From positions 6,065,001 to 6,129,000 of the forward strand of contig NZ_VAWE01000001.1 in assembly GCF_005795905.1 (NCBI RefSeq): DNA of 64,000 bases, in the 5' to 3' direction. Shown here one piece after another: positions 18,031 through 44,548 of the stretch. A model generated the notes under the pieces. It searched no databases. It saw only the letters and a list, made by a program, of their open reading frames with translations, and had not been told where the DNA came from. How positions within the stretch are numbered: the stretch's first letter is position 1; every line of letters starts with the position of its first letter. This DNA comes from Streptomyces marianii (GTDB lineage Bacteria > Actinomycetota > Actinomycetes > Streptomycetales > Streptomycetaceae). A program made the translations under genes and the position numbers.

Positions 18031-18051
18031 ACGCAGCCCTCGCACTCCGGC

Positions 18052-19378: not shown

Positions 19379-19421
19379 AAATGGAGCGCTCGGAGAGCCG
19401 GGGCCGCGGGAGGCAGTCGTC

Positions 19422-21118: not shown

Positions 21119-21155
21119 CCTCCTGCGGTCCGGTACCGGGAGCAGGGCGGGGAAC

Positions 21156-22028: not shown

Positions 22029-22094
22029 GCCGGCTTCCGGCCGGTCCGCCGCTCGGCGCCTCGTCCGACCGGCCGCTCCTGGCCTCGGCCGTTT

Positions 22095-22345
22095 CGGGTG
22101 TCGGGGTGTCTGCCGGTCTGCCGGGTCGGGTCCCGGGCGGTCCGCCGTGCCTCGCTTCTGCCGGGCGGTCGGCCTGTGCCGCTGCGGTTCTGTCGAGGGG
22201 GGTTCCGGCCGTTTCGGGTGTCGGGGTGTCTGCCGGTCCGCCGGGTCGGGTCCCGGGCGGTCCACCGCCCCTCGCCTCGGCCGGTCCGCCGGGTCGGGTC
22301 CTGGGCGGTCCACCGCCCCTCGCCTCGACCGGTCCGCCGCTCCTC
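22095..22345. repeat. GC-rich direct repeats between the TPR gene and kstR
   Basis: Units containing GTTTCGGGTGTCGGGGTGTC and CCGGGTCGGGTCC(C/T)GGGCGG occur two to three times each. No coding potential is seen. The repeats fill the convergent space between the TPR gene and kstR. Confidence 0.7.
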
Positions 22346-22348
22346 GCC

Positions 22349-22984
22349 TCAGCCGGTCCGCCGGCCCGGCTGCCTTCCCGGGGCCGTGAGGTCGATCAGG
22401 CGGCAGACCGTCTCGATGTCGATCTTCACCTGGGCGATCGAGGCGCGACCGGACAGCCAGGTGATCAGGGCCGAGTGCCAGGTGTGCTCGATGACCCGGA
22501 CGGCGGAGAGCTGTTCGGGCGTCGGGTCTTCCAGGCCCATCGCGTCCAGGATGATCGCCGTGGTCTGGCGCGAGACCGTGTCCACCTCGGGACTGACGCT
22601 GCGGTCGGCGAAGGTCAGCGCACGCACCATCGCGTCCGCGAGGTGCGGTTCGCGCTGCAGCGCGCGGAACGCCCGCATCAGGGTCTCGGCCACCCGCTGC
22701 GCCGCGCTGTCCGCGACCGGCGGGCGCTTGCGCAGGGTGGTGTGCAGATGCTGGAGCTGGTCCTGCATCGTGGCCACGAGCAGGTGCACCTTGGAAGGGA
22801 AGTAGCGGTACAGCGTGCCGAGCGCGACACCGGCCGCCTCGGCGACCTCACGCATCTGCACGGCGTCGAAGCCGCCCCGGCTGGCCAGCTGCGCGCTGGC
22901 GTGCAGGATGCGGCGGCGCCTGGCCTCCTGGCGCTCCGTCAGGGGCGGGGTCGCCGGAACGGCCGGCCTGGTCTCCGCGCTCAT
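22349..22984 (-). CDS. kstR: TetR-family repressor KstR (steroid catabolism)
   Basis: 211 aa. The TetR helix-turn-helix region closely matches mycobacterial KstR: RRRRILHASAQLASRGGFDAVQMREVAEAAG, then VALGTLYRYFPSKVHLLVA. The C-terminal ligand domain shares EVDTVSRQTTAIILDAMG-type and WLSGRASIAQVKIDIE features. In actinobacteria KstR represses cholesterol side-chain and ring genes and is released by CoA thioesters of sterol metabolites. ATG 22984 gives the family length and has GGAAGAG upstream; ATGs at 23080 and 23110 add a disordered N-terminus. A perfect KstR site lies about 200 bp upstream, consistent with autoregulation. Confidence 0.9.
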   Translation of the reverse strand: MSAETRPAVPATPPLTERQEARRRRILHASAQLASRGGFDAVQMREVAEAAGVALGTLYRYFPSKVHLLVATMQDQLQHLHTTLRKRPPVADSAAQRVAETLMRAFRALQREPHLADAMVRALTFADRSVSPEVDTVSRQTTAIILDAMGLEDPTPEQLSAVRVIEHTWHSALITWLSGRASIAQVKIDIETVCRLIDLTAPGRQPGRRTG

Positions 22985-23184
22985 CTCTTCCGTCCCCGTC
23001 CCCGGTCCAGGGGCCCTTCCCGGCCCGCTGTCCGGATCCGTGCTGCGTTTCCGTTCCGGGAGCTGCCGGAGGGCCAGCATGGCAGGGCTCCGCGCCGTGG
23101 CGCGAATCACCTGATCCAGGCCTTACAGCAGCGCTACCTGCCGGTAGATTCGATGCTCCTTGAGCGATCAAGAACGATCAAGTG

Positions 23185-23198
23185 TGGAACTTGTTCTA
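23185..23198. promoter_or_regulatory. KstR operator between kstR and the glycosyltransferase gene
   Basis: TGGAACTTGTTCTA matches TnnAACnnGTTnnA at all fixed positions. It lies in the divergent region, 55 bp before the glycosyltransferase GTG and 200 bp before the kstR ATG. It could control either or both genes. Confidence 0.75.
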
Positions 23199-23252
23199 GA
23201 TTAGCGCGAGCGGTTACGCTCCGGCGAAAGTGGAGTGAGAAGGGGGCCGTAG

Positions 23253-24566
23253 GTGACCGCTGAGGCCATAGCGGCCGGGCCCCGTCGGGGTGCGTCCGGT
23301 GCCGATGACCGACCGCTGCGCATCGCGCTCCTCACCTACAAGGGCAACCCGTTCTGCGGGGGCCAGGGCGTCTACGTACGCCATCTGTCCCGGGAGCTCG
23401 CCCGCCTCGGCCACAGCGTCGAGGTGATCGGCGCCCAGCCCTTCCCCGTGCTCGACGAGGGTGTGCCGCTCACGGAGCTGCCCAGTCTCGACCTGTACCG
23501 GCAGCCCGACCCCTTCCGCACCCCGGGGCGCGGCGAGTACCGCGACTGGATCGACGGGGTCGAGGTCGCCACGATGTGGACGGGCGGCTTCCCGGAGCCG
23601 CTGACGTTCTCGCTGCGCGCACGACGCCATCTGCTCGCGCGCCGGGGCGAGTTCGACGTCGTCCACGACAACCAGACCCTCGGGTACGGACTGCTCGGCG
23701 ACCTCGGCGCACCGCTCGTCACCACCATCCACCACCCGATCACGGTCGACCGGCAGCTCGAACTCGACGCCGCGCAGAACTGGCGCCGCCGGGCGTCGGT
23801 GCGCCGCTGGTACGGCTTCACCCGGATGCAGAAGCGGGTCGCGCGCCGGCTGCCTTCCGTCCTCACCGTCTCCGGCTCGTCCGAGCAGGAGATCGTGGAG
23901 CACCTGGGCGTCCGTCCCGAGCGGCTGCGGGTCGTGCACGTCGGCGCCGACACCGGCCTCTTCTCGCCGGACCCGTCGGTCGCCGAGGTGCCCGGCAGGA
24001 TCGTGACGACATCGAGCGCCGACGTGCCGCTCAAGGGCCTGGTGTTCCTGGTGGAGGCGCTCGCCAAGCTCCGTACGGAGCAGCCCGACGCGCATCTCGT
24101 CGTCGTCGGTAAGCGCGCCGAGGACGGACCCGTGGCCCGGATGATCGGGCGGTACGGCCTCGAGGACGCCGTGCGGTTCGTGAAGGGCATCTCCGACCAG
24201 GAGCTGGTGGACCTCGTACGCAGCGCCCAGGTGGCCTGCGTCCCGTCGCTGTACGAGGGGTTCTCGCTGCCGGCCGCCGAGGCGATGGCCACCGGCACCC
24301 CGCTGGTCGCCACGACCGGCGGCGCCATCCCGGAGGTCACCGGTGCCGACGGCGAAACCTGCCTCGCCGTGCCGCCCGGCGACGCCCACGCCCTCGCCGG
24401 CGCGCTCGGCCGGCTCCTCGGGGACGCGGGACTGCGCCGCCGCATCGGCACGGCCGGGCGGAACCGCGTCCTGTCCCGGTTCACCTGGACCCGTGCGGCC
24501 CAGGGCACGGCGGAGCTCTACCGCGAGGCCATCGCGGCACGCCCGGCCGCGGCCGGTGCCCGATGA
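23253..24566 (+). CDS. Glycosyltransferase family 4 (GT-B)
   Basis: 437 aa. N-terminal acceptor domain begins LRIALLTYKGNPFCGGQGVYVRHLSRELARLGH. The C-terminal donor domain has the E-x7-E-type motif SLYEGFSLPAAEAMATGTPLVAT typical of retaining GT4 enzymes. It should move a nucleotide-sugar-derived glycosyl group onto an unknown acceptor in the cytoplasm. The GTG start follows AGAAGGGGG. It heads an operon with a methyltransferase and an alpha-barrel protein, and resembles the Rv0225/Rv0224c neighbourhood in M. tuberculosis. The upstream KstR site makes sterol-linked regulation possible. Confidence 0.88.
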   Translation: MTAEAIAAGPRRGASGADDRPLRIALLTYKGNPFCGGQGVYVRHLSRELARLGHSVEVIGAQPFPVLDEGVPLTELPSLDLYRQPDPFRTPGRGEYRDWIDGVEVATMWTGGFPEPLTFSLRARRHLLARRGEFDVVHDNQTLGYGLLGDLGAPLVTTIHHPITVDRQLELDAAQNWRRRASVRRWYGFTRMQKRVARRLPSVLTVSGSSEQEIVEHLGVRPERLRVVHVGADTGLFSPDPSVAEVPGRIVTTSSADVPLKGLVFLVEALAKLRTEQPDAHLVVVGKRAEDGPVARMIGRYGLEDAVRFVKGISDQELVDLVRSAQVACVPSLYEGFSLPAAEAMATGTPLVATTGGAIPEVTGADGETCLAVPPGDAHALAGALGRLLGDAGLRRRIGTAGRNRVLSRFTWTRAAQGTAELYREAIAARPAAAGAR

Positions 24567-31776: not shown

Positions 31777-31897
31777 ACGGGCCCCACGGGCGGCGACAGG
31801 GCGCCGACGGGTGCTCCCGCCGGATTGGGGACACGATGGACACACGCACGAGAGCTGCCCGGCGACCGCCCGGGACGACGACTGCTGCGGAGGCGCC

Positions 31898-32179
31898 ATG
31901 GACACCTGGGCGACGTGGACGACTCAGGGGATCATCGCCGGCACCGGCGGGGTCATGACCACGGAAGGTGGTCCGATCACGGGGGACGTGACCGTGCACA
32001 CCACGTGGATCGACGGCCTGGCGCAGGTGACCGTGCAGCACACCGGGGCGACCGACTGGTACGCCGTGCAGGGCAGCCCCGTGCCCGCCGACGACGAGGA
32101 CGTGGGCCGGGCCGTGCATCAGGCGGCCGTGGAGGCGGTCAAGGAGGGCGGCGGCCGGGCGTTCTCGTTCCCCGTCTGA
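31898..32179 (+). CDS. Small conserved-looking protein of unknown function
   Basis: 93 aa beginning MDTWATWTTQGIIAGTGGVM. It contains two beta-like segments (VTVHTTWIDGLAQVTVQHTG, TDWYAVQGSPVPADDEDVGR) and a C-terminal helix (AVHQAAVEAVKEGG). GCGGAGGCGCC precedes the ATG at near-ideal spacing. No signal peptide or membrane helix is present. It is the last chromosomal gene before the Tn7-like insertion at 32398. Confidence 0.65.
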   Translation: MDTWATWTTQGIIAGTGGVMTTEGGPITGDVTVHTTWIDGLAQVTVQHTGATDWYAVQGSPVPADDEDVGRAVHQAAVEAVKEGGGRAFSFPV

Positions 32180-32680
32180 GGCGCCGGCCGCTCGGCGCCG
32201 GTGGTGCGCGTCGCGTCGGTGGCGCCGGTGGTGCGCGTCGCGTCGGTGGGGCCGGGGGTGCCCGCCGAACGACGGCGTTCGGGCCGTCCGCGGATCGTGC
32301 TCGGAGGTGCGGGGGTGTCCGAGGGGTACGCACGGAGGTGGGTGTCGTCCTGCGCGTCCCGCACAGTGTCGCCGTCGTCGCCGACCGGAAGTGGCACTGT
32401 CCTGTCCGACTGAACCTTGCGAGAACTGGTCCTGATGACCTGCGGTTCGCAACCTCAGCTGCGGCAGGTGAGAGCCAGAAGGTCTCACCATAGGTTGCAT
32501 TATCGGCAGTCTGTTGGGCGCCGAAACGATGCTTGGTTCCTCTTGGACGGGGGTGTCAGATCAGGCTGAGCTGTTCTCCCGGAGTCGGTGGCAGGAGAGT
32601 TGCTCCGCGGGACACCTCTAATTTGCGAGTCTCGTTGTCAGCGCCAATACGACGATCCCGCAGTGATGAGTGGCGGTCCG

Positions 32681-33196
32681 TCAGCAGGATTCGAAGCTGG
32701 GGACAGCCGGACCGATGTTGCCGTCTTCGTCCATGAACTCGAGCCGTTCCATAAACGCCACGATGAACTCGGTGAACGAGCCGTCGAAGGTCGCGCATCC
32801 CTCTTCGTGGGCCATGGTGACGATCGTCCAGCGGTCTGGATCCGGGTTGCAGGGCAGGAAGAAGTGCTCGTCGCCGCCATAGTCGTAGCCCCAGGAGATC
32901 AAGCCGCCCGGCTCGGGGTGGAACGGGTGCGGGAAGTCGTCCGGGCGGCGTTCGCGCGAGTTGGCGAAGCTCTCGTGGATGCGGCGCATGCGCTCCAGCA
33001 GCGGGCTGGAGCCGTTGGGGTGGAAGACCACAAGTTCTTCGGCAATCACGCCGGTGCCGTAGATGTCCAAGAATGCCTTGAAGTCGCTCGGCAAGGGTGA
33101 CCCCACATAGCTCTCGACCTCGGTCCAATCGGCGGGTGACCACCGACGTGGCAACGGCATGCCGAGCAGCTGCTTCAACGCTTCGAGTCCTGCCAT
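32681..33196 (-). CDS. SMI1/KNR4-family protein (immunity-like cargo)
   Basis: 171 aa. The SMI1/KNR4 fold is indicated by WTEVESYVGSPLPSDFKAFLDIYGTG near residue 30 and by ISWGYDYGGDEHFFL, then GCATFDGSFTEFIVAFM. In bacteria these proteins often act as immunity factors against contact-dependent or polymorphic toxins. ATG 33196 has GGTGAGG upstream. It occupies the left cargo position in Tn7-like element A, matching the place of the DUF4241 gene in element B. No toxin partner is adjacent. Confidence 0.85.
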   Translation of the reverse strand: MAGLEALKQLLGMPLPRRWSPADWTEVESYVGSPLPSDFKAFLDIYGTGVIAEELVVFHPNGSSPLLERMRRIHESFANSRERRPDDFPHPFHPEPGGLISWGYDYGGDEHFFLPCNPDPDRWTIVTMAHEEGCATFDGSFTEFIVAFMERLEFMDEDGNIGPAVPSFESC

Positions 33197-33437
33197 GTGC
33201 CTCACCTGCTCGATCACCCTGATTGAACGGGGCAAACCTAACGTGATCAACCTGTCCAGTGGAGGGCGGGGTGGCTCCCCGGCCCGCCAGATAGGGAGAG
33301 TCGGCCGGCCTGCTCGTCGCGGCGGTCAGCAAGCCGTCGGAGATCTGCTCACGAGTGATCTGTCCCTTGGCCGCGGCGTCGTCCCTGACCATCCCCTCGT
33401 AGCGTGGAGCCCTTGATTGCAGGGGAAGTTGGGGTTC

Positions 33438-33782
33438 ATGGGGTCCAAGAAGAAGCCGCCGTACGACGCTGAGTTCCGTGAGGGCGCGGTGCGCATCGTG
33501 GTCGAGACCGGGAGGCCGGCCGGCGAGGTCGCCGAGGAGCGCGGCATCAACCCGGGCACGCTGCACAGCTGGGTGTCGCGGTGGCGGCGCAACGGGACGA
33601 CGTCCTCGGACCGGCCCGTACAACCGACAGCCGCCAGTGGCGGTGGCGGTCGGGTGCGGGAGGCCGAGCGGGCCGAGCTGGAGCGGCTGTGCCGGGAGAT
33701 CGGGGAGAAGAGCAAGCGGATCCGGGAGCTGGAGATGGAGCGTGATGTCTTCAAGCGATGTATGGCCCTCTGGGTGAAGTGA
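33438..33782 (+). CDS. IS3-family transposase OrfA
   Basis: 114 aa. N-terminal helix-turn-helix (YDAEFREGAVRIVVETGRPAGEVAEERGINPGTLHSWVSRWRRNG) and a C-terminal leucine-zipper-like coiled coil (LERLCREIGEKSKRIRELEMERDVFKRC). It overlaps OrfB in the -1 phase, the usual arrangement for programmed frameshifting. It binds the element ends and is needed with OrfB, which is broken here. Confidence 0.88.
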   Translation: MGSKKKPPYDAEFREGAVRIVVETGRPAGEVAEERGINPGTLHSWVSRWRRNGTTSSDRPVQPTAASGGGGRVREAERAELERLCREIGEKSKRIRELEMERDVFKRCMALWVK

Positions 33783-34865
33783 TCGAGAACGCTCCGGAGG
33801 CGGTGGTCGCCTTCATCGGTAGCCAGAGGGTCGGGCATGGCGTCCCGCACCGGGTGTCCTGCCGGGTGGTCGGGGTGAGCGAGGCTTGGTTCTACAAGTG
33901 GCGCCGGCGCCCCGACGAGCCGACGAAACGCGTGGTCAGGAGGGCGAGGCTGGAGGAGCGGATCATCCACTTCTTCACGGAGTCCGGCGGCACCTACGGC
34001 TCGCCGAGGATCACTTTGGATCTGTGGGCGGAGGGCTGGCAGGTGTCGGTGAACACGGTCGCGGAGATCATGGCCGGGCTCGGTCTGCAGGGCCGCAAGC
34101 CGCCCAGGCGGCGGTCGCTGACCCGGCAGGGCAAGCGGAAGGCTGCCCCTGACCTGGTGAATCGCCGTTTCGACGCGGTGGCCCCGGACGTTCTCTGGTA
34201 CGGCGATATGACGGAGATCGAGACCGGCGAGGGCAAGATCTATCTAGCCACGGTCATCGACGCGTTCTCGCGCCGTTGCCTCGGCTACGCCATGGGCGAG
34301 CACCATGACGCGGCCTTGGTCGGGGCGTCGTTGAAGATGGCCACCGCGACGCGCGGTGGCCGAAGGGACGGGACGATCTTCCACAGCGACAGGGGAAGTG
34401 AGTACACGTCAGAGGCGTACAACACCCTGTGTGACCGTCCGGGCGTGGTGCAGTCCATGGGCAGGGCCCCGGCGTTCTCCGCGAATGTCCCGGTTTGCTC
34501 CGACGGGATGTTGCAGATCGATCAGCCTCGTTGCCTGATCGGAACGGGGTCCGGACCGATGACGCACGGATCTCGAAACGGACATCTCGGGAGAACGCCG
34601 GGGCCCTGAGTCCATGGGGCGGGTGGGGTCGGCGCTGGACAACGCCGCCGCGGAGTCGTTCAACTCGCTGATCAAGGTCGAGTACATCCACCGGCACCGG
34701 TTCGCCACCCGCACCGAGGCCCGCCTGAAGATCGCCACCTGGATCACCGGGTTCTACAACCCGCGACGCAGGCACAGCGCGGCCGGCGGCCTGCCGCCGG
34801 AGGAGTTCGAACGGAGCATCACCGAAGCACGCAAGAAGAGCGACCAGAGGTGCCAGGCCGCATAG
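33758..34865 (+). pseudogene. IS3-family transposase OrfB interrupted by a MITE
   Basis: The first part (33758 to about 34460) has the HTH_21 and rve core regions: GGTYGSPRITLDLWAEG, VLWYGDMTEIETGEGKIYLATVIDAFSRR with the first Asp, and TIFHSDRGSEYTSE with the second. A 147-bp MITE plus a 10-bp duplication follows. Removing those 157 bp restores the frame and joins VVQSMG to RVGSALDNAAAESFNSLIK, which carries the catalytic Glu. So this was one intact transposase until the MITE inserted. Confidence 0.88.
34462..34608. mobile_element. 147-bp MITE inside the IS3 transposase gene
   Basis: Perfect 19-bp terminal inverted repeats CAGGGCCCCGGCGTTCTCC, flanked by a 10-bp direct repeat AGTCCATGGG (34452-34461, 34609-34618). 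It has no coding capacity and needs a transposase in trans. Confidence 0.88.
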
Positions 34866-34874
34866 GAGAGGTCT

Positions 34875-35607
34875 CTACGAAACCAGGGGATTGACAAACG
34901 CCTTCCGCAACCGAGATGCAATTGGCTCCACCACATGGCGCGTATGCCGATAGCCCGCCAGCCACCTGACATTCCGCACCAGGATCTCGTCCGGCGTCCC
35001 CACCAGGCGGAAGTCCCACCCCACGTGATCGCAGGCCGCCCGCGTCGCCTCGAACTTCTCCCAGTCCCGAGGCCGGCGCCGTTCCGCCGGGCGGCAGTCG
35101 AGCACCACTGCGGAACCATCGTCCCGCCGTGCGAAGTAGTCCGGCACGTGCGAGAGACCCTTGCCGTTCCCCGACGTCCAGAACAGCCAGAACGGCTGCG
35201 ACGACACCTCCACCACGGAGACTCTGCTGCTCAATTCGGCTGAGCAGCAGAGTCATGCCGGGAAGGCCGCAACGGTCACCGCGTTGTCGCAGGTCATGGT
35301 CCGCGTGTCGGAGTTGCCCCGGAATTGGGCAGCAGAGTCCACGGACGGGTCAAAGTCCATCAGCATCACGTGATCACGTTTCAGCCAGGACTCGTACCCG
35401 ATGTGCCCGCCCGCCGTCGACGACCACCACAGCCCTGGCAGATGCCGCTGCCTTTTGTACGACTTGAACGCGCGTACCGGCGTGAACGCCCTCGAACCGC
35501 ACTGACCACACATCGGCCAGCGGCCGGCGTAGCTCCGATCCATCTTGCTCGACGTACCCGACCTCGAATCCATTGGCGGGCGGCCCCTGTACGCCGCCGG
35601 CCAGCAC
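34875..35607 (-). pseudogene. Degenerate TnsA-like endonuclease of transposon A
   Basis: Segments match the intact TnsA-like protein at 42304: NGFEVGYVEQDGSELRRPLA, then (another frame) PVRAFKSYKRQRHLPGLWWS and HIGYESWLKRDHVMLMDFDPSV, then SSQPFWLFWTSGNGKGLSHVPDYFARR and VRNVRWLAGYRHTRHVVEPI. It is damaged three ways: a frameshift near 35490, a 120-bp MITE between FDPSV and VEVSSQ that supplies stop codons, and truncation of the C-terminus by the IS3 right end. The divergence from the second copy shows an old, separate element. Confidence 0.85.
35220..35339. mobile_element. 120-bp MITE inside the tnsA remnant
   Basis: Near-perfect 18-bp terminal repeats GACTCTGCTGC(T/C)CAATTC with a 6-bp direct repeat CACGGA on both sides (35214-35219, 35340-35345). 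Its left end carries an extra internal hairpin (GACTCTGCTGCTCA facing TGAGCAGCAGAGTC). Confidence 0.85.
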
Positions 35608-35685
35608 CGCGTAGCCCAGCTTCCACGGATGGCCTAATACTCCAGCCGTAGATCGTGATCTCGGTGGTGAGTGGCGCCTCTCCGC

Positions 35686-36090
35686 CTACCCGAGTTCACC
35701 GAGACGGAGGGCGTCCCTTATCTCGCTGAGCTTCGCGGTTGTCGCCGGGGTCCGTTCCTTCGCCTGTTCGCCGAGACGGAGGGCGTCCTCAATCTCGCTG
35801 AGCTTCGCGGAGGACAGGACGCCCGCCCGCTCGATCAGGTCGTCCTGGGACACGGTGGTCAGCCACGTGCAGGGGGTAAAGCCCGGGCGCGGGAACGCGA
35901 ACCGCAGCACGCCTTCAAAGGGCAGTTCTTCCATGGCACCTACTTGCACTTCGACGCCCAGACCGCTGATGTCGACGCCCGCAGGAGTGACGACCTGCAT
36001 CGCCCGGATCCTGGACGCGTCGTCTGCCGCCAGCAGTACGACCAGCCGCCGCTCGTCGAACTCCACCCACCAGACTTCGCCACGTTGCAC
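35686..36090 (-). CDS. MazF/PemK-type mRNA-interferase-like protein inside an IS
   Basis: 134 aa. VQRGEVWWVEFDERRLVVLLA matches the N-terminal beta-strand and Arg/Gly/Glu motif of MazF/PemK, followed by MQVVTPAGVDISG and CTWLTTVSQDDLIERAGVLSSAKLSEIEDALRLGE, the classic C-terminal end. The last 40 residues contain a second, near-identical AKLSEI-DALRLGE unit, a short internal duplication. MazF family members cleave mRNA. AGGAGG precedes the GTG start. No antitoxin frame is visible in the 89-bp divergent gap or elsewhere in the element. Confidence 0.82.
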   Translation of the reverse strand: MQRGEVWWVEFDERRLVVLLAADDASRIRAMQVVTPAGVDISGLGVEVQVGAMEELPFEGVLRFAFPRPGFTPCTWLTTVSQDDLIERAGVLSSAKLSEIEDALRLGEQAKERTPATTAKLSEIRDALRLGELG

Positions 36091-36179
36091 ATGTCCTCCT
36101 GACTCAGGACGGCAGGCGGAACTGCGCGACCCTGACGCGTTGTGGAGACGGGTGCGGCCACCGTTGATCATCGTGAGTT

Positions 36180-37490
36180 GTGTGGACTGACGAAGAGACG
36201 GTGGCCGCAGGTCACAGCATAGAACCCACCCGTTGGCGGGACGCGTTCGAGGGCCTGATGGGCCGGATCGCGGGGCGCTTCGCCCGGGTCGAACCCCGGC
36301 GCAGGGCGGCGCGGTTGGTGCTCGGTCTATTGGCCGACCTGCCGCGCAAGAACTGCTGGACCATCGCCGAGTGGGCTGGCGAGACCACTCCGGACGGCAT
36401 GCAGCACCTGTTGGGCAGGGCCAAGTGGGATGCCGATCAGGTCCGCGACGACGTGTGCGGCTACGTGGTGGAGCACCTGCACGACGACCGGGCGGTGCTG
36501 GTCGTCGACGAGACCGGCGATGTGAAGAAGGGCACTGGCACGGTCGGCGTCCAGCGCCAATACACCGGCACTGCCGGCCGGATCGAGAACTCCCAAGTCG
36601 CCGTCTACCTGGTTTACGCAGGCAAGCGCGGCCACGCCGCAGTGGACCGGGAACTCTACGTTCCGCGCTCCTGGACCTCCGACCCCGACCGCTGCCGCGC
36701 CGCGGGCCTTGCCGAGGAAACCACCTTCGCCACCAAGCCGGAGCTGGCCACTCGTATGGTCGCCCGGTTCCTGGACGCCGGCCACCAGGCCGCATGGGTT
36801 GCCGGCGACGAGGTCTACGGCGGCGACCCGAAGCTGCGAACCGCACTGGAGGAACGCGGCACCGGCTACGTCCTCGCGGTGGCCTGCTCGCACGAAGTCA
36901 CCACCGGTGCGGGGAAGTTCCGTGCGGACATCTTGGCCAAGAAGGTGCCCAAGCGGGCCTGGCAGAAGCTCTCCGCAGGGGCCGGGGCCAAGGGCCACCG
37001 CGTCTACAACTGGGCAGTCATCGACCTCCCCGACCCCCGCCCCGGGAGTCGTCAGCTACTGATCCGCCGTAACCGCAGCACCGGCGAACTCGCCTACTAC
37101 CGCTGCTACTCGCCCGCGTCCGTGCCGCTGACCGTGCTGGTCAGAGTCGCCGGATCAAGATGGCGGGTGGAGGAGTTTTTCCAGTCGGGCAAGGGCCTGG
37201 CCGCACTCGACGAGCACCAGGTCCGCCGCTATACCTCCTGGTCCCGCTGGGTCACCCTCGCCATGCTCGCGCACGCTTTCCTCGCCGTCGTACGCGCAGA
37301 CGAGCACACCCGCCCCGCACCCGATGCCCTCATTCCGCTCACCTGCAACGAGATCCAGCGCCTGTTCATCACCCTCATCGTCCGACCCGTCCACGACACA
37401 GCCCACCGGCTCGGTTGGTCGAACTGGCGACGCCGCCACCAGGCCCGATCCCAAGCCAGCCACTACCGACGACAAGCCACTCAGGAATGA
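36180..37490 (+). CDS. IS701-family transposase
   Basis: 436 aa, full length for the family. Visible: KNCWTIAEWAGETTPDGMQHLL, VLVVDETGDVKKGTGTVGVQRQYTGTAGRIENSQ with the first Asp, WVAGDEVYGGDPKLR with the second, RWRVEEFFQSGKGLAALDEHQ with the Glu, and the basic tail WSNWRRRHQARSQASHYRR. The GTG start is 89 bp from the divergent MazF-like gene. Frame and both ends are intact, so the element could be active. Confidence 0.9.
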   Translation: MWTDEETVAAGHSIEPTRWRDAFEGLMGRIAGRFARVEPRRRAARLVLGLLADLPRKNCWTIAEWAGETTPDGMQHLLGRAKWDADQVRDDVCGYVVEHLHDDRAVLVVDETGDVKKGTGTVGVQRQYTGTAGRIENSQVAVYLVYAGKRGHAAVDRELYVPRSWTSDPDRCRAAGLAEETTFATKPELATRMVARFLDAGHQAAWVAGDEVYGGDPKLRTALEERGTGYVLAVACSHEVTTGAGKFRADILAKKVPKRAWQKLSAGAGAKGHRVYNWAVIDLPDPRPGSRQLLIRRNRSTGELAYYRCYSPASVPLTVLVRVAGSRWRVEEFFQSGKGLAALDEHQVRRYTSWSRWVTLAMLAHAFLAVVRADEHTRPAPDALIPLTCNEIQRLFITLIVRPVHDTAHRLGWSNWRRRHQARSQASHYRRQATQE

Positions 37491-37607
37491 AGATCACGAA
37501 CTACGGCTGGAGTACTAACGCCAGGTCCGCTCGCAAGGTAACGCGAGACCTCGCAAGATCTTTCGCAACCTATGCCCGGACTTCGTAAGGTTTAGTGAGA
37601 CAAGACA

Positions 37608-37612
37608 GGCAC
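37608..37612. repeat. GGCAC target duplication shared by two Tn7-like elements
   Basis: The same 5 bp occur at 32393-32397, 37608-37612 and 43170-43174, exactly at the outer edges of both Tn7-like elements and between them. Confidence 0.8.
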
Positions 37613-37844
37613 TGTCGTGTGCCTCTGAAGGTTGCATACCCCGAGACCCTGACCAGCGAGGTGGAGAGTCTCGCTGCGCAGCGAGCTGCGGAGTCGTGCA
37701 GATCTACCTTGCATTTTTTGGAAGCGAGTGAGGCTGAGTGCGAGAGCTGTGGGGCGCTTGACGCTCCGGGCCGGAGTTCCGCTGTCAGCGGGTGCGTCTA
37801 TCTTTCGGGCGGGATCGTCCAAAGCTGGCAGTGAGAGGTGAGGC

Positions 37845-38558
37845 ATGGTGCGGGTGACGGATGCTCGGCTGAGGGCAGGTGCGGAGGTTGCTGAGTACCT
37901 GGAGGAGGTCCTTACTGCGGGTGCGCGGCTGGGTGTGCTGTCCGACCATCCACTGACCTTCGTTGAAGTGGTCGAGGTCTCGGAGGTGACATCGATCCGG
38001 ATACCCAGTGGCCGTCTCATCGTGGACTCGCCGTGGACGGACGAGGAGCCCCGCGAGCTCAAGGAGCGGATCTCACCTGGTGTTTATCGCGTGGATGCCG
38101 CTTGGGTGGAGGCTCCCCACGAATTCATGGGCGAGTACGTTTCCGGCCGGGAGTGTGCAGCGATTCGCTTGTGTGTCAGGGATGCCCCCGTCGTCGGTTG
38201 GGAGATGGGTCTCGCGGTGGGCGACGACATCGAGCGGCTTCAGAAGGGGCAGGAGGTTGGGTTCGAAACCGATACCGCCATGGGCTGCTTCTCCGACGCT
38301 GTTGCATGGTCGGCGTTGACCGCGCCGTTCCGCAGCTTTCGGGAGGCGTGCGAGAGCCGCGAGCCAGGCACGTTCGTGTCCCGTGACACCGCGGGCCTGT
38401 GCGATGGGTACTTCGAACGGTCCCCTGACGAGTCTCATGGCGCTGACCTGCTCACCTTCGTGGCCAACGAAGGGCGAACTGTCGTCTGGCTCGGCCGCAC
38501 GGACAGCGGCAGCGTCGCCTCGATCGTCGTGGTCCCGCACCTAGACATGTTGGCCTGA
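37845..38558 (+). CDS. DUF4241-family protein (immunity-like cargo)
   Basis: 237 aa. GRLIVDSPWTDEEPREL, GVYRVDAAWVE, AAIRLCVRDAPVVGWEMGLAVGDD and DTAMGCFSDAVAWSAL fit the DUF4241 pattern, a family often found as cargo and in predicted immunity or defence contexts. GAGAGGTGAGGC precedes the ATG. It takes the left cargo position in transposon B, as the SMI1/KNR4 gene does in A. No toxin gene is next to it. Confidence 0.8.
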   Translation: MVRVTDARLRAGAEVAEYLEEVLTAGARLGVLSDHPLTFVEVVEVSEVTSIRIPSGRLIVDSPWTDEEPRELKERISPGVYRVDAAWVEAPHEFMGEYVSGRECAAIRLCVRDAPVVGWEMGLAVGDDIERLQKGQEVGFETDTAMGCFSDAVAWSALTAPFRSFREACESREPGTFVSRDTAGLCDGYFERSPDESHGADLLTFVANEGRTVVWLGRTDSGSVASIVVVPHLDMLA

Positions 38559-38894
38559 GCTGCCCGTGCAGGATGAAGCCTCACGCGCGGGAGGGTTTCG
38601 AGGTCACGGATACCGGTTGAGATGAGGGAGGTAGTGAGGGTGGGGGTTCCTCGTGGAGATCCGCACGTGAGACCACGCGCGTCGGTAAACAGACGCGAGA
38701 TGGCGGTGCCGTTCCAGGGAGTCGCCGGCTCGCTTGGTGGGGTCGAATTCTCGTGCCTGGCGTTCCTGGGCGCGGCGTGTAGCGACGTGTAGATGAGGCC
38801 GGTAGAGGTGAGGAGTCCGGGTTGGCTTTCTGTCTGGAAAGAGGCGGATCGGAGCCACCGGAGGGCGTCGGGAATTGACGTCAGCCCAATGAAG

Positions 38895-39895
38895 TCTTCT
38901 CGGCAACGTGACGGTTGCGGTGTGTGATGGTGCCGGGCGGCGGGATGGTGACTCGGCGTCAGACATGAGTGAAGCCCCTGGTAGGAACGGGTCTGCGAAG
39001 ATCACGTTCCGTACAACCAGAGGCTCCACGTGCCCTCCAGTATCACCTACACCGCCGTGCTCGATGTCCGCAGGGCGACCGCCGAGCATCTCGCGAAGCT
39101 ACTGCGCGGGCACCGCGAGCAGCTCGGGACCCGCAAGGGCACTCGAGCGCTGGGCGTCTTCAAACAGGCGGTACTCGTGCTGCGCTGGTTCGTCGACGGT
39201 ACCCGGCTGGTCCAGCTCGCCCGGGACAACGGCATCTCGGTACCGACCGCCTACCGCTACCTGCACGAAGGACTGACCGTGCTCGCCGATCATGCGCCCG
39301 ATCTGTCCACCGCGCTGGAGCGGGCGGTGGCGGCCGGGTACACCCATCTCAACCTAGACGGCACGGTCATCCGCACCGACCGGGTGGCCGCCGCCGGCCC
39401 CAACGGCGCGGACCTGTGGTGGTCGGGCAAGCACAAGCATCACGGAGGAAACGTGCAGGTCATCGCCGCCCCGGACGGCTGGCCGATCTGGGTCTCCCCG
39501 GTCCGCCCGGGCCGCGAGCACGACACCACCTGCGCACGGGCCCACGGCCTCGTCGACGCCCTGAACCGGCTCGCCGCCACCCTGGGCATCCCGACCCTGA
39601 CCGACCTCGGCTACGAGAACGCCGGGCCCGGCTTCCGCCACCCGGTCAAGAAGCCCAAGGGCGGTGAACTCGCCGAGCCCGACCAGGCGTTCAACGCCGT
39701 GGTCCGAGGCGTCCACGCTGTCGCCGAACGCGCCAACGCCCTGCTGAAGGTCACTTTCAAGGCCCTGCGCAGGGTCAGCCTCGACCCCGCGGCCATCACC
39801 CGCATCGCCCGAGCCGCCCTCGTCCTGCTCCAGCTCGAACACGGCCGCACTGCCTGAACGAAGATCACAAACCGTCACGAGACGTTACCGAGAAG
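38895..39895 (+). mobile_element. IS5-family (ISL2-type) insertion sequence
   Basis: Inverted ends CTTCTCGGcAACGT and CTTCTCGGtAACGT (inward), with a 3-bp flank AGT on both sides (38892-38894, 39896-39898), fitting the ANT duplication of the ISL2 group. It encodes one transposase and is inserted in transposon B next to the tnsC remnant. Confidence 0.82.
39030..39857 (+). CDS. IS5-family (DDE_Tnp_4) transposase
   Basis: 275 aa. N-terminal HTH (GTRKGTRALGVFKQAVLVLRWFVDGTRLVQLARDNGISVPTAYRYLHEG), then the catalytic domain with HLNLDGTVIRTDRV, WWSGKHKHHGGNVQVIAAPDGWPIWVSPVRPGREHDTTCAR, TLTDLGYENAG and HAVAERANALLK containing the Glu. The single uninterrupted frame and intact ends suggest a complete element. 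Confidence 0.9.
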   Translation: MPSSITYTAVLDVRRATAEHLAKLLRGHREQLGTRKGTRALGVFKQAVLVLRWFVDGTRLVQLARDNGISVPTAYRYLHEGLTVLADHAPDLSTALERAVAAGYTHLNLDGTVIRTDRVAAAGPNGADLWWSGKHKHHGGNVQVIAAPDGWPIWVSPVRPGREHDTTCARAHGLVDALNRLAATLGIPTLTDLGYENAGPGFRHPVKKPKGGELAEPDQAFNAVVRGVHAVAERANALLKVTFKALRRVSLDPAAITRIARAALVLLQLEHGRTA

Positions 39896-39918
39896 AGTTC
39901 AATGACTGATCGGGTCGT

Positions 39919-40290
39919 TCACTCGATCTCGGGTGTAGGGCGGGCAGGACAGGATTCGTCCCGGCCGGAGGCGCCGGAGAGGATCACGCCGCGGCGGGCG
40001 GAGATCTGGTTGCGGTTGAGCTGGATCAGTAACCGGGAGGTGGCGGTGACCTTGCGGATGACCGGGGTGTTCACCATCGGCAGATCGGCGTGATACTCGC
40101 GGCGCCGTTCGTCCTCACGCATCCCTTCCCGCGGACCCAGCGCTGCCCGTTCACCGGCTGTCAGCAGCCGGGGCGGGACTGGCTCGTGGCCGACGAAGTG
40201 ACGCCATCCCTCCTTGGTAGTCAGCGGGTTGTCCGGCGGAACCTGTGAGGCCGGGGCCGCCTCCGGGGCGGACGGGGAGGACGTGCTCAT
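39919..40290 (-). pseudogene. TnsC/TniB-like ATPase truncated at its Walker A loop
   Basis: The 123-codon frame has the TniB-type N-terminus: TTKEGWRHFVGH, ADLPMVNTPVIRKVTATSRLLIQLNRNQ, then RRGVILSGASG, where the P-loop GTGKT should follow. Instead it runs into RDESCPARPTPEIE and stops, so the ATPase and everything after it is lost (breakpoint about 39975). The ATG overlaps the tnsB stop (ATGA), showing the ancestral tnsA-tnsB-tnsC operon. In this family TnsC activates TnsB and selects targets, so loss should disable autonomous movement. Confidence 0.85.
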
Positions 40291-42314
40291 AGCCACCTCT
40301 CGGCTTCTGCGTGAGCGTCGAAGATCCCGAACTCCACCGCCGCCGCGGGCGGCTGGACCTCGGGCTCCGGCTCCGCGCGGCGTTCGGTCTCGGGCGCCGC
40401 TGCGGGCGCGGGGACGGCGCGGGCGGTGCGGGTTCGTGCGGCCACTTTGGCCGACCGGGTGTCAGGGCCGTGCTCGGCGCGGGTGAGCAAACTGTCCAGG
40501 ACGCGGGCGACGGCCGTTTCGTTGGTGTCGTCCAGTCCGGCCTCGGCTGCTAGGCGGCGCGCGTGTTGCCAGGTGAAGTCCGCGAACGGCGCGTTCACGA
40601 GGGGCCACTGCGTCCAGGGCGCGGTGATCCAACCGCCCGGTGTGCGGACGAACACCTGGGACAGGTCGTAGGGGTCGTAGTGCACTTCCCACAGACCGCG
40701 CTTGGCGGTGATCCCGGAGTGCTCGCGTCGATGCGGCGCCAGGGCGGGGCAGTCGTAGGTGCGGTAGCTGATCTGGATGCCGTAGTCGTTGATCGCCCGC
40801 CAGGCCACCGGCAGCAGTTCGAGGTAGTCCTCGCCGCGGAGCACGAGCGGCAGATAGCCGCAGGCCGCCACCAGCGAGGCGTACTTGTCGTTCGGCGACA
40901 TCGCCCTCTTCGGGCGGAACGGGTCGCGCAGAGTGCTGTGCGGCCGCACCTGCCACCCGGCCAGCAGCCACTCATCCAGCAGGTCCTGAAGCTCCGGGAC
41001 CGTCCAGACGGCCCGGTCCTCGACTCGTTCGCCGCGGCGGGAGACATCCCGCCCGGTGTAGCCGGCCAGGTGTTGGGTGAACAGCGTGTTGATCGAGGAG
41101 AACGTGGCTTCCACGATCGCCTTGTCGGTCGGCGTGCGGGGACGCGCTCGCTGGACTGAGATGCCGAGCCTCTCGCAGGCGCGCAGGAACGTGTCGGAGA
41201 TGAACACCTTGCCGCCGTCGATGACGACTGTGTCCGGCACGATCACCGGTTTCGCCGCGGCCTGCTCCATCCGCGCGTCCGCGTCCAGCAGCCGCATGTG
41301 AGGCATTCGAGACGCCGCCATGCGTAACGACTCGGACCAGCCAGGCCGCATCGGTTCGGGCACCAGCATCCGGGCCAGCAGCAGCGAGGCGTCCACCGCC
41401 TTGGTGCCCACCGGCCGCAGCACTGCGGCGCAAACCGTGCGGGTGGCGACGTCGACCGCGATCGTCAGATCCGCGCGGGCCGTCACCCCGGAGTCGAGCA
41501 CCACCATCACATCCAGCGGGGTGGAGTCGATCTGTACTTGTTCCCCGGGCCGGTCCGCGAACGTCGGCGTGAACGGCCCTTGCGGCCGGTTCGCCGCCTG
41601 GCGCCGCGTGACCGCCGAACCGAAGGTGTGCCGCCCGGCTGAGAGCGCGTCGATCAGCTTGTAGAAGGTGTTCTTGCTCGGCAGCGGCACCACCCCCTCA
41701 CCATGGGTCATTTCCACTGCTTTGATCACCCTGCGGATCAGGCGCGAGCGGGTCCCCGTCGACGTGTGCGTCTCCGCGTCGAGGACCTCACGGATCGCCG
41801 CCACCAAGCGGGCATCCGCCCGCCCGGTCGGTTCCGATGTCCGCACCAGACGCTGATCGACCAGCCCCCAGAGCCCCTGCCGGGCATAACGGGCCCGCTT
41901 CTCGTTCACCGTTCGCAGGCCCACTCCCAGCTCGTCAGCCTTCGCCTGGGCCCGCTCGACCAGCGGATGTTCCGCCGGGTCGTATTCAGGCCGTGGAGAA
42001 GCGCCCGGCTTGGCGCTGGAGGGCAGCCCCCTGTTGACCTCCAGGACATGGCTCTCCCACTCCTTCGCCGCCGTCAGCACCGGCTTCGGTAACGTCGCCA
42101 GCAGCCCGGACGGCTCCAGCGCGGGCAGGGGCTCCGTGCCCGTGACGGCGAAGTCCGGCGCCGCCATCAGGTGCGAGGCCAGCACCACCGACTCCGTCCC
42201 GGACTGAGACCGCAGCCGCACCGACGTCCCGGCGAGCGCCACCACCAGGTGGTCCCCGTCGTCGTAGGTGATCCAGTCACCGGGGCGAAGCACCGCCCCG
42301 CGCTCAGCAGCCAC
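40287..42314 (-). CDS. TnsB-like transposase (DDE, Mu/Tn7 type)
   Basis: 675 aa. N-terminal DNA-binding helices precede an rve-type DDE core: GEQVQIDSTPLDVMVV (Asp), TVVIDGGKVFISDTFLRACE (Asp) and TDKAIVEATFSSINTLF (Glu). A Mu-type beta-barrel C-terminal domain follows (HYDPYDLSQVFVRTPGGWITA). The protein cuts and joins transposon 3' ends. The GTG start overlaps the tnsA stop by 11 bases, and tnsC starts on its stop. An upstream in-frame ATG at 42425 lies inside tnsA and is rejected. No damage is visible. Confidence 0.88.
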   Translation of the reverse strand: MAAERGAVLRPGDWITYDDGDHLVVALAGTSVRLRSQSGTESVVLASHLMAAPDFAVTGTEPLPALEPSGLLATLPKPVLTAAKEWESHVLEVNRGLPSSAKPGASPRPEYDPAEHPLVERAQAKADELGVGLRTVNEKRARYARQGLWGLVDQRLVRTSEPTGRADARLVAAIREVLDAETHTSTGTRSRLIRRVIKAVEMTHGEGVVPLPSKNTFYKLIDALSAGRHTFGSAVTRRQAANRPQGPFTPTFADRPGEQVQIDSTPLDVMVVLDSGVTARADLTIAVDVATRTVCAAVLRPVGTKAVDASLLLARMLVPEPMRPGWSESLRMAASRMPHMRLLDADARMEQAAAKPVIVPDTVVIDGGKVFISDTFLRACERLGISVQRARPRTPTDKAIVEATFSSINTLFTQHLAGYTGRDVSRRGERVEDRAVWTVPELQDLLDEWLLAGWQVRPHSTLRDPFRPKRAMSPNDKYASLVAACGYLPLVLRGEDYLELLPVAWRAINDYGIQISYRTYDCPALAPHRREHSGITAKRGLWEVHYDPYDLSQVFVRTPGGWITAPWTQWPLVNAPFADFTWQHARRLAAEAGLDDTNETAVARVLDSLLTRAEHGPDTRSAKVAARTRTARAVPAPAAAPETERRAEPEPEVQPPAAAVEFGIFDAHAEAERWL

Positions 42315-43071
42315 CGGCCACCCCCACGGACACCGCAGCTTCAGTGTGCAGCGGAACGGACACGTCCACGGCCAGCTCGTGAGTCCACAGCAGGTGGAAC
42401 AGCACCGGTAGCACCGCGATCTCATCCCCCACCGAGGCGGCCCCGCTCATCAACGGCCGCGGCTCGGCGAACGCGACCAGCAACTCCGAGGCGACTGACT
42501 CCAGCCGGTGCCGCGGGTGCCGGTAGCCGGCCAGCCAACGCACATTGCGTACCACGATTGCGTCCGGCGCCCCCACCAGGGAGAACTCCCACCCCACCTG
42601 AGCACAAGCTGTCTGCGTGGCCTCGAACTTCGCCATGTCCCTCGGCTTGCGGCGGTCCGCCGGACGGCAGTCGACCACGACCGCCGTGCCGTCCTCCCGG
42701 CGGGCGAAGTAGTCCGGCGCGTGCGAGACGCCCTTGCCTGCATCCGACCGCCAGAACAGCCAGAACGGCTGCGACGAGATCCCCACCACAGACGGGTCGA
42801 AGTCCAGCAGCATCACGTGATCGCGCTCCAGCCAGGACTCGTAGCCGATATGGCCGCCGACCGTCGCCGACCACCACAGACCTGGCAGATGCCGCTGCCC
42901 CTGGTACGACTGGAACGCGCGTACCGGAGCGACGTCCTCGAACCTCACTGCCCAGGCATTCGCCAGCGGCAGGCGGAACTCGGACCCGTCTCGGTCGGCG
43001 TACGCGACCTCGAACCCCTCCACCGGTGGCCGGGTGATCCCTCCCGGCAGCACCTCTAACGCATGTACCAC
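42304..43071 (-). CDS. TnsA-like endonuclease
   Basis: 255 aa, GTG start. The endonuclease core has GHIGYESWLERDHVMLLDFDPSVVGISSQPFWLFW (Glu, Asp and Gln) and HAPDYFARREDGTAVVVDCRP, the restriction-like fold of TnsA, which cuts the 5' ends so that Tn7-type elements move by cut and paste. It is the first gene inside the right end, 98 bp from the terminus, and is coupled to tnsB. The intact copy and the broken copy at 34875 share long identical stretches. Confidence 0.85.
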   Translation of the reverse strand: MVHALEVLPGGITRPPVEGFEVAYADRDGSEFRLPLANAWAVRFEDVAPVRAFQSYQGQRHLPGLWWSATVGGHIGYESWLERDHVMLLDFDPSVVGISSQPFWLFWRSDAGKGVSHAPDYFARREDGTAVVVDCRPADRRKPRDMAKFEATQTACAQVGWEFSLVGAPDAIVVRNVRWLAGYRHPRHRLESVASELLVAFAEPRPLMSGAASVGDEIAVLPVLFHLLWTHELAVDVSVPLHTEAAVSVGVAGGC

Positions 43072-43089
43072 GACCGGTTAACGCGTCCC

Positions 43090-43169
43090 CCGATGCAAGG
43101 TCACTCTGACCACTGCGAGATTGGATGCAGAGTCAAGCTGACCTTTGCAGGGTTCAGAGCTACAGGACA
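43090..43169. repeat. Right end of transposon B with repeated TnsB-like sites
   Basis: GATGCAAGGTCA, CACTGCGAGATT, GATGCAGAGTCA and TTGCAGGGTTCA repeat at about 18-20-bp steps before the terminus. Similar sites TCGCAAGGTAAC, TCGCAAGATC, TCGCAACC and TCGTAAGG lie before the right end of transposon A (37530-37595). Confidence 0.65.
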
Positions 43170-43207
43170 GGCACGCCTTTCCGGCCGTACGCCGATTCCA
43201 CCACGCA

Positions 43208-43224
43208 TCTGACCTTCCGTCAGA
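43208..43224. promoter_or_regulatory. TCTGAC-N5-GTCAGA palindrome upstream of the SCP2 thiolase gene
   Basis: TCTGACCTTCCGTCAGA, perfectly symmetric arms (ATCTGAC/GTCAGAT with the next base each side). It ends one base before the KstR operator at 43226. Confidence 0.65.
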
Positions 43225-43225
43225 T

Positions 43226-43239
43226 TGAAACGTGTTCTA
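43226..43239. promoter_or_regulatory. KstR operator upstream of the SCP2 thiolase gene
   Basis: TGAAACGTGTTCTA matches TnnAACnnGTTnnA at all fixed positions, 118 bp before the thiolase start. Confidence 0.75.
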
Positions 43240-43357
43240 CTCTCCGGCTCCATGGGGAGCGGAAGCATCGCGATCACTCACGACACAGCGCGCCCTCACG
43301 GACTCCGTGCGCCGCTGGGTCACGACTGACCGCCCCGAGACCGAAGGAGTCCTTCCG

Positions 43358-44548
43358 GTGAAGAGCTACATCGTCGGCGTCGGTATGACGAAGTTCGAGA
43401 AGCCCGAGTCGAGGGACTGGCGATACCCGGACATGGCGAAGGAGGCCGGTACCGCGGCCCTCGCCGACGCCGGCATCCCGTACGGGCTCGTCCAGCAGGT
43501 CCCGGTCGGCTACTGCTTCCAGCCGTCCACGGCCGGGCAGCGTGCGGTGTACGAACTCGGCCTCAGCGGAGTCCCCGTCTACAACGTCAACAACAACTGC
43601 GCCACCGGCTCCACGGCGCTCATGATGGCGCGGCAGTTCGTCGAGGGCGGGCTCAGCGACTGCGTACTGGCGCTGGGCTTCGAGCAGATGAAGAAGGGAG
43701 CGCTCGGCGGCGGAGCGGACGGTGGGGACTTCGCCGCCTCGCCCGTGGCCCGCCACTACGGGATCATGGCCGCCGCCCACGGCTTCGAGCGGACCCCGCC
43801 CACCGCCCAGATCTTCGGCAACGCGGCCCGCGAGCACATGGAACGCCACGGCACCACCGAGCGGCAGCTCGCCGCCGTCGCCGCCAAGAACCACCGGCAC
43901 TCCGCCGCCAACCCGTACGCCCAGTTCCGCACGGTGTACGAGGTGGACGAGATCCTCGCCGACAAGCCGGTCCACCCCCCGCTCACCCGCCTCCAGTGCT
44001 CGCCCACCTCCGACGGGGCCGCCGCGGCCGTCGTCGTGTCCGAACGGTTCCTCGTCGAACACGGCCTCCACGACAAGGCCGTCGAGATCGCCGGGCAGGC
44101 GATGGCCACCGACACCGCCGACTCCTTCTCCTCGGGCTCCTGCGTCGACGTCGTGGGCACGCCCGTGTCCCGGGCCGCGGCCCGGGGGGCTTTCCAGGCG
44201 TCCGGACTCGGCATCGAGGACATCGACGTCATCGAGCTGCACGACTGCTTCTCGATCAACGAGCTGCTCACGTACGAGGCGCTCGGCATGTGCCCATGCG
44301 GCGAGTCCGGCAAGCTCGTCGAGTCCGGGGCGACGACGTACGGCGGACGGTGGGTGGTCAACCCCTCGGGCGGCCTCATCTCCAAGGGCCACCCCCTGGG
44401 CGCCACCGGCCTCGCCCAGGCCGCGGAACTGACCTGGCAGCTGCGCGCCGAGGCCGGCCCGCGCCAGGTCTCCGGAGCGCGCACGGGGCTCGCCCACAAT
44501 ATCGGCCTGGGCGGCGCGGCGGTGGTGACGGTGCTGCGGAAGGGGTGA
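43358..44548 (+). CDS. SCP2-type thiolase / lipid-transfer protein, Ltp1-like
   Basis: 396 aa. SYIVGVGMTKFEKP opens the thiolase fold. The nucleophile Cys is in VYNVNNNCATGSTALMMARQ, His in GLISKGHPLGATGLAQAAELTWQLR, and the DVIELHDCFSINELLTYEALG block is typical of SCPx/Ltp enzymes. It resembles mycobacterial Ltp1 (Rv2790c) closely along its length. These enzymes cleave branched 3-ketoacyl-CoA or act as aldol-lyase partners in sterol side-chain breakdown. GTG 43358 has AAGGAG nine bases upstream. The KstR site supports membership of the regulon. The Tn7-like right end stops about 40 bp before the operators. Confidence 0.88.
   Translation: MKSYIVGVGMTKFEKPESRDWRYPDMAKEAGTAALADAGIPYGLVQQVPVGYCFQPSTAGQRAVYELGLSGVPVYNVNNNCATGSTALMMARQFVEGGLSDCVLALGFEQMKKGALGGGADGGDFAASPVARHYGIMAAAHGFERTPPTAQIFGNAAREHMERHGTTERQLAAVAAKNHRHSAANPYAQFRTVYEVDEILADKPVHPPLTRLQCSPTSDGAAAAVVVSERFLVEHGLHDKAVEIAGQAMATDTADSFSSGSCVDVVGTPVSRAAARGAFQASGLGIEDIDVIELHDCFSINELLTYEALGMCPCGESGKLVESGATTYGGRWVVNPSGGLISKGHPLGATGLAQAAELTWQLRAEAGPRQVSGARTGLAHNIGLGGAAVVTVLRKG

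Follow-up and report, generated by a model that had tools for sequence, protein, structure and literature searches.

Tn7 normally guards its own landing site: the target sequence survives insertion, and a second copy is not usually taken up (Hughes/Craig work; PMC11406308, as far as the available text of that source goes). How, then, could two Tn7-like transposons come to stand head to tail on the same five target bases? This question is raised by a locus of Streptomyces marianii, studied in a window that comprises the whole analysed stretch of 64,000 nucleotides (nt), positions 6,065,001 to 6,129,000 of contig NZ_VAWE01000001.1, or C1:6065001-6129000 of the genome under study (G000; 9.0 Mb in seven contigs). 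Within it, two elements, termed A and B, are arranged head to tail and bracketed by a small gene (31811-32179) and a lipid-transfer/thiolase gene (43232-44548, identified by NF006102). The stack is real and is best explained, with a probability of about 0.75, by two successive TniQ-directed insertions, with a swap of the target selector and a different recognition of transposon ends.

An earlier note on this DNA had read three copies of GGCAC, at the outer edges and at the junction, as the marks of two separate Tn7-like elements, each with its own ends and its own 5-base-pair (5-bp) duplication. This reading is borne out, and the site is empty in a relative (genome G289). The stack is defined by the following features, where G332 is a further genome that carries an intact element.

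32393 to 32397: GGCAC, left target duplication of element A, present as a single copy in the empty site of G289
32398 to 37607: element A, Tn7-like and decayed, its ends accompanied by the 5-bp duplication; blastn aligns stretches of it to the intact G332 element
37608 to 37612: GGCAC, common to the right end of A and the left end of B
37613 to 43169: element B, Tn7-like and defective, its ends accompanied by the 5-bp duplication
43170 to 43174: GGCAC, right target duplication of element B

When 295 genomes were searched with the DNA of the left flank, close matches were obtained in G289, G034, G332, and G349. In G289, the left flank reaches GGCAC and is followed directly by the right flank, with one copy of the five bases. 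The join is clean except for small species differences, the distance from GGCAC to the promoter box described below being 37 bp in G289 and 35 bp in the window. The check proposed in the earlier note, an empty site joining the flanks at a single GGCAC, has thus been found in a real genome.

All four termini of A and B read TGTC.TGT inwards, in agreement with the TGTC(N)TGT-like ends noticed before, and both elements combine TGT...ACA ends with a 5-bp target duplication, as Tn7-like transposons do. A search of the window for inverted ends bordered on both sides by the same duplicated 5 bp gave three pairs, namely the two ends of A (19/24 nt alike), the two ends of B (18/24), and the outer pair of A-left and B-right (18/24); the two inner ends, A-right and B-left, share 15/24. 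The outer pair invites another reading, in which a single event brought in one composite unit (32398-43169), the middle GGCAC being secondary or due to chance. Its outer ends do match to that extent and have the same duplication, but the inner ends pair equally well with their own outer partners, A-left is mainly of the GCGA type while B-right is of the GCAT/GCAA type, and in G332 an A-type element stands by itself, complete with a left and a right end of its own. Since the outer pair is no more alike than the own pairs and mixes the two end motifs, the composite is unsupported and hardly credible. It would call for outer ends that are alike and served by one transposase and for no independent inner duplication, a pattern that the locus does not show. 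By the same figures, nothing singles out the outermost ends. A chance repeat was also rejected as an explanation. The string GGCACTGTC alone proves little, as it has four matches in the window against 0.98 expected and this number was reached in 1 of 100 shuffles; the weight lies in the matched ends, the duplications, and the empty site taken jointly.

The two separate elements differ in what is left of their transposition genes, which are listed below.

38610 to 38891, reverse strand: C-terminal remnant of tniQ of B, 70-71% identical in amino acids to residues 270-365 of G332 TniQ
39919 to 40296, reverse strand: N-terminal fragment of tnsC of B (similarity at 39964-40239), 78% identical in amino acids to residues 18-109 of the 360-residue G332 TnsC
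40287 to 42425, reverse strand: tnsB of B, with homology from about 42314; PF09299 at 25.9 bits (cut-off 21.7), 78% amino acid identity to G332 TnsB
42304 to 43071, reverse strand: tnsA of B; NF033179 TnsA_like_Actin at 318.4 bits (cut-off 110)
34897 to 35637, reverse strand: tnsA remnant of A, split at 35219/35339; PF08722 at 29.2 bits (cut-off 26.5)

In B, the genes for a TnsA-type endonuclease and a TnsB-type DDE transposase adjoin, as in Tn7-like transposons. The TnsB of B has a sequence match in the PDB to TnsB of Tn6677 (E 1.1e-8), and its rve domain scores below the cut-off (25.2 vs 32.6). Stretch 39964-43324, which covers part of B and its flank, is 75.6% identical in nt to the G332 locus. 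For element A, blastn identity to the G332 element is 83% at the left end (32398-32599), 91% and 90% in the two parts of tnsA (34897-35219 and 35339-35637), and 86% at the right end (37515-37608). Of the two tnsA genes formerly placed beside the right ends, that of A is a broken remnant. Because A is without most of its machinery (a tnsA remnant is all that is left, and no tniQ was found in the element) and B is without most of tnsC and tniQ, neither is likely to be able to move by itself today, judging from the genes retained.

Evidence that the site may be chosen, and not simply tolerated, comes from G332. There, an element occupies the same intergenic region in the same orientation, with intact tnsA, tnsB (an open reading frame of 765 residues), tnsC (360 residues, TniB family), and tniQ (366 residues). 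The tnsA end faces an acyl-CoA dehydrogenase gene and the cargo faces the small gene. TnsC scores 55.4 bits with PF05621 (cut-off 22.4) and has a PDB match to TnsC of Tn6677 (E 1.9e-9). TniQ scores 26.4 bits with PF06527, just under the cut-off of 27, and found no sequence match in the PDB at E values up to 1. The cargo of this element (L066 14496-17410) includes two phage-integrase-like proteins of PF00589, the second below the cut-off. The conserved box shared by the two genomes is the following.

43210 to 43239, forward strand: conserved promoter box TGACCTTCCGTCAGATTgGAACGTGTTCTA, the proposed target reference, 35 bp from the duplication of B

In G332, the box reads TGACCTTCCGTCAGATT and lies 36 bp from the last base of the duplication. 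It runs on as GGAACGTGTTCTA and is nearly invariant in 29 boxes of loci L085-L114. In its sequence the box resembles an operator, which may be a KstR-like motif. The G332 duplication is GCGGT, unlike GGCAC, and since the two distances, 35 and 36 bp, go with different duplications, the measured point was evidently hit on two independent occasions. Insertion at a fixed distance, with the tnsA end nearest to the box and in the same orientation, was found in G000 and G332, which makes two secure cases. Moreover, ACA.GACA within 60 bp upstream of the box occurs only at the G000 and G332 loci among the 29 boxes mentioned. The box region matches 141 of 392 genomes of the genus and TnsA-like genes 217 of 392; among the matches listed, which were compared by eye, the two stand side by side only in G000 and G332. 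The box is absent from 24 named loci found with a TniQ alignment, except for one poor match in L140.

These 24 loci, from named and mostly Streptomyces genomes, reveal a comparable habit elsewhere. The right flank is readable in 17, and in 8 of them (L128-L133, L137, and L149) the neighbour is lon, so that a recurrent landing site lies upstream of this gene, at about 5900-6050 of the loci. The identity of lon was established by TIGR00763 for the three tested (L128, L133, and L137) and by translated starts for the other five. In six of the eight lon loci, the exceptions being L129 and L137, 4-6 bp separate the end of the duplication from a GATCGCT inverted-repeat box; four of the eight (L128, L130, L131, and L133) also show a left end that matches, bordered by the identical duplication. 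The two repeats upstream of lon are presumably those named ClgR box and HAIR. The elements of G152 (L127), G370 (L126), and G090 (L073) sit elsewhere. In S. coelicolor, the lon promoter region is bound by HspR, according to the available portion of PMC2687793.

Could the intergenic region be merely a permissive hot spot, the distances of 35 and 36 bp being coincidental? Just two occupied sites are secure, and a pattern scan found GACA 38-43 bp before the box in 6 of 362 genomes, where by our estimate about three would be expected by chance. However, the orientation is the same, the distance agrees within 1 bp, the duplications differ, the TniQ C-termini group together, and the lon-site relatives show comparable fixed spacing. 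The hot spot is thus improbable, and the shared site seems to behave like a promoter attachment site. G034, where GACA occurs at that distance too (35 bp after GGCGA), was considered as a relic and not counted, because the scan, which also returned G004, G328, and G329, gave a total of about the chance expectation.

If TniQ directs the insertions, the history of the selector in B deserves attention. Amino acid identities for TnsA, TnsB, the TnsC fragment, and the TniQ C-terminus were compared over 29 loci. For its Tns proteins, B finds its closest or nearly closest relative in the lon-site locus L133 (86/87/88% for TnsA/TnsB/TnsC fragment; TnsC of L131 reaches 89%, over a shorter stretch), yet the TniQ C-termini of the two are only 33% identical. 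Against G332, the values are 74% for TnsA, 78% for TnsB, 71% for the TnsC fragment, and 70% for the TniQ C-terminus, while the TniQ remnant of B is at most 51% identical to loci other than G332. Trees of 14 rows each repeat this disagreement. In the TnsB core tree, B joins L132 and L133 (99/96), whereas in the TniQ C-terminus tree it joins G332 (92/99) inside a clade (100/100) without L132 and L133. The approximately unbiased (AU) test rejects B with G332 for the TnsB core (p-AU 0.0025) and B with L132 and L133 for the TniQ C-terminus (p-AU 4.75e-66). We read this as an exchange, in the ancestry of B, of the TniQ selector or its C-terminal part. The earlier suggestion that one element had arrived by a route such as exchange survives only in this other sense, as it is the TniQ of B that looks exchanged.

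A suitable selector would bring B to the site; whether A would have let it in may depend on the ends. At the right end, the innermost motif reads ACCTTGCGA in A, G332, and L125, ACCTTGCAT in B, L126, L127, L128, L137, L139, and L073, ACCTTTCGT in L129-L133, and ACCTTGCGG in L135 and L136. A CCTTGC-type motif appears in several copies in the right ends of A and G332 and in fewer copies in their left ends. For a covariation test, 14 of 16 elements were used (L135 and L136 were dropped for their short TnsB), with identity taken relative to the catalytic core and with 2000 label shuffles. Pairs of the same class share more TnsB identity at residues 100-160 and 120-180, where 1 and 0 of the 2000 shuffles reach the observed value; for segments 60-120, 150-210, and 180-240 the figures are 4, 0, and 8. 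Segments 0-60, 520-600, and 600-660 show no such excess (306, 1345, and 258 shuffles). For instance, TnsB of B and that of L133 are 93-97% identical over residues 240-600 and 63-72% over residues 60-180. The end motif and the DNA-binding stretch of TnsB appear to diverge together, and as a result two elements could ignore each other's ends. Since A and B differ in their main end motif, and the motif class covaries with the TnsB stretch, B likely escaped target immunity through diverged end recognition.

It may be objected that no escape was needed, either because the ends or machinery of A were already dead, because immunity is weak in this group, or because a rare insertion occurred despite immunity. 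This is the less likely case. In its favour, A is heavily decayed, and some related systems inserted repeatedly at one locus in the laboratory (PMC12452197, in the part of the paper available). Conversely, the terminal motifs of A are still recognisable, and the A/B pair and a second pair in G187, described below, both differ in end motif, which the objection does not predict and which amounts to two cases only.

Several points weigh against the account of selector swap and diverged ends. The motif classes are impure, as the left end of A has one GGTTGCAT among GCGA-type motifs and the right end of B also has GCAA and GCAG variants. Label shuffles ignore relatedness beyond the subtraction of core identity, and some TnsB identities had been seen before the end classes were set. 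Similarly, the AU groups were chosen after the identity table had been seen, and the grouping of B with G332 in the TniQ tree is not starred. Elements at the lon site have two very different TniQ C-termini, so that the C-terminal class is not one-to-one with the site. Only two intact-enough elements, B and G332, tie this TniQ type to the box site, the tniQ of A having been lost. Furthermore, A may have been decayed already when B landed.

With these points in mind, the course of events may be pictured as follows. The TniQ of this lineage would recognise the box or the gene start and set the right (tnsA) end at a fixed distance. Element A, of the G332 type, would have landed first. Later, B would have been inserted where the measured distance again fell, on the box side of A, so that GGCAC was duplicated anew and A was displaced outwards. 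It could aim at the site because its TniQ is of the G332 type, though its TnsA, TnsB, and TnsC belong with the lon-upstream elements, and A would have been no obstacle, as the TnsB of B would recognise another end motif. Afterwards, A would have lost tnsB-tnsC-tniQ and gained insertion sequences (IS), and B would have been stripped of most of its tnsC and tniQ next to an IS5-like insertion. The reverse order, B and then A, would require A to hit the far GGCAC of B, at a distance of more than 5 kb from the box; decay has also gone further in A than in B. A tandem produced by homologous recombination or amplification, in place of two transpositions, could draw on the tnsA genes of A and B, which are about 75-87% identical in aligned stretches. 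Such a process would not account for exact 5-bp duplications at each of the three junctions, however, and the cargo, ends, and TnsB relatives differ between A and B, which makes it very improbable.

Successive insertion is not confined to the window. Same-strand TnsA pairs within 25 kb occur in at least six genomes (G000, G439, G079, G080, G187, and G447), four of which were inspected besides the window. In G187 (reverse complement of C2:9655000-9696000; L155, L163, and L164), two elements of a different subfamily are chained head to tail as GCCGC-e1-GCCGC-e2-GCCGC, with e1 at 4627-17268, the middle GCCGC at 17269-17273, and e2 at 17274-23601. Their end motifs differ, GACA preceding.GAA in e1 and CTCA preceding it in e2; tnsC of e1 appears as two separate matches, and e2 alone gave a tniQ. 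In L140, the element at 5209-10444 (duplication CGAGC) is nested in one at 5185-16193 (CGCGC), 24 bp in from the right end of the latter. A comparable arrangement, read by eye, is found in L153 (6488-10640), where one Tn7-like element sits within the right end of another, about 14 bp in. In both, the newcomer is at the tnsA end, which supports the order assumed for the window. In G439 (L152) and G080 (L154), tandem tns genes were seen with no convincing chained duplication. A wider generalisation, to which we would give somewhat less than even odds, is that Streptomyces Tn7-like elements form incompatibility groups, in which TniQ exchange sets the promoter site and co-divergence of TnsB and ends sets which elements share it, the chained-duplication stacks of G000 and G187 being a record of this.

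The remaining features of the locus are cargo genes, later insertions, and a truncated neighbour.

32681 to 33250, reverse strand: SUKH-1 (SMI1/KNR4) protein, cargo of A; PF09346 at 29.0 bits (cut-off 25.4)
33417 to 34609, forward strand: IS3-family transposase reading frames (33417-33782 and 33758-34609); NF033516 at 201.4 bits (cut-off 160), PF01527
35220 to 35338: small inverted-repeat element of 119 bp in the tnsA remnant of A, with 18-nt inverted repeats and a 7-bp duplication CCACGGA
35638 to 37514: IS701-family insertion in the right-end region of A, with inverted repeats and a 4-bp duplication CTAA
36180 to 37490, forward strand: IS701-family transposase in A; NF033540 at 421.5 bits (cut-off 150)
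37845 to 38558, forward strand: DUF4241 protein, cargo of B; PF14025 at 70 bits (cut-off 27)
38887 to 39904: IS5-like insertion between the tniQ and tnsC remnants of B (inverted repeats I14)
39030 to 39857, forward strand: IS5-like transposase in B; PF13359, with the NCBIfam IS5 model below its cut-off (77.7 vs 140)
43253 to 43330, forward strand: 5' stub of an acyl-CoA dehydrogenase gene; the intact gene follows the box in G289, G034, and G332

A short segment bearing 29-nt inverted repeats (34462-34608) breaks up the second IS3-family reading frame of A. An immunity-like gene had been assigned to the left part of each element; the gene in A is the SUKH/SMI1-KNR4 protein, and its counterpart in B is corrected to the DUF4241 protein. 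PADLOC gave no match at E up to 0.01 for seven cargo proteins. In the window (43232-43370), the acyl-CoA dehydrogenase gene, which lies between box and thiolase in G289, G034, and G332, has been deleted, and a 5' stub of about 80 bp abuts the thiolase gene. PF08722 has three matches in the whole G000 genome and none in 14 control genomes. The same genome has a third, more distant tnsA-tnsB-tnsC set (G000:C1:7278595-7281350; L064 from 6533), and the start of the gene adjoining it resembles PhzF-type proteins.

Natural Tn7-like pairs that share a site but apparently not immunity would make the sequence basis of target immunity testable. Additionally, the locus is a case in hand of selector and transposase histories that disagree at a shared attachment site, and orthogonal ends at a shared site would serve repeated DNA insertion at one locus. 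By their sequences, A and B belong to the actinobacterial Tn7-like group. They resemble the Actinobacteria-dominated clade of Benler et al. 2021 in host group and TnsA family (NF033179); the available part of that source (PMC8649781) states that no member had been characterised experimentally, and the present analysis points to promoter sites for it (the acyl-CoA dehydrogenase box and lon).

Several Tn7-like elements have been found collected near one attachment site in older reports, and no priority is therefore claimed for stacking itself, though no report of such a stack in Streptomyces was found in the open-licence literature. Fixed attachment sites and selector exchange in Tn7-like elements are already known, as far as the accessible parts of PMC10293859, PMC8649781, and PMC11406308 go. 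What appears new, within the open-licence literature, is the promoter site, the disagreement of selector and transposase where the site is occupied, and the way in which end motif and TnsB covary.

The closest known systems are Tn7 and Tn7-like elements with an attachment site read by TnsD/TniQ. The likeness extends to TnsA, TnsB, TniB-type TnsC, and TniQ in the intact relative in G332, to TGT...ACA ends with a 5-bp duplication and the tnsA end beside the target gene, and to a constant spacing between the insertion and a conserved sequence. In Tn7, however, TnsD binds the end of the glmS coding region (PMC2918618, available in part), whereas here the candidate reference is a promoter box ahead of a gene. 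In contrast to Tn7 target immunity as set out in the available text of PMC11406308, a second, divergent element landed here beside the first. The C-terminal parts of TnsD/TniQ have been proposed to follow the attachment site, and selectors to be exchanged between elements (Faure et al. 2023, PMC10293859, in the portion available). Compared with those modular selectors, the swap proposed here involves closely related elements that use promoter sites, and it goes together with a stacked insertion.

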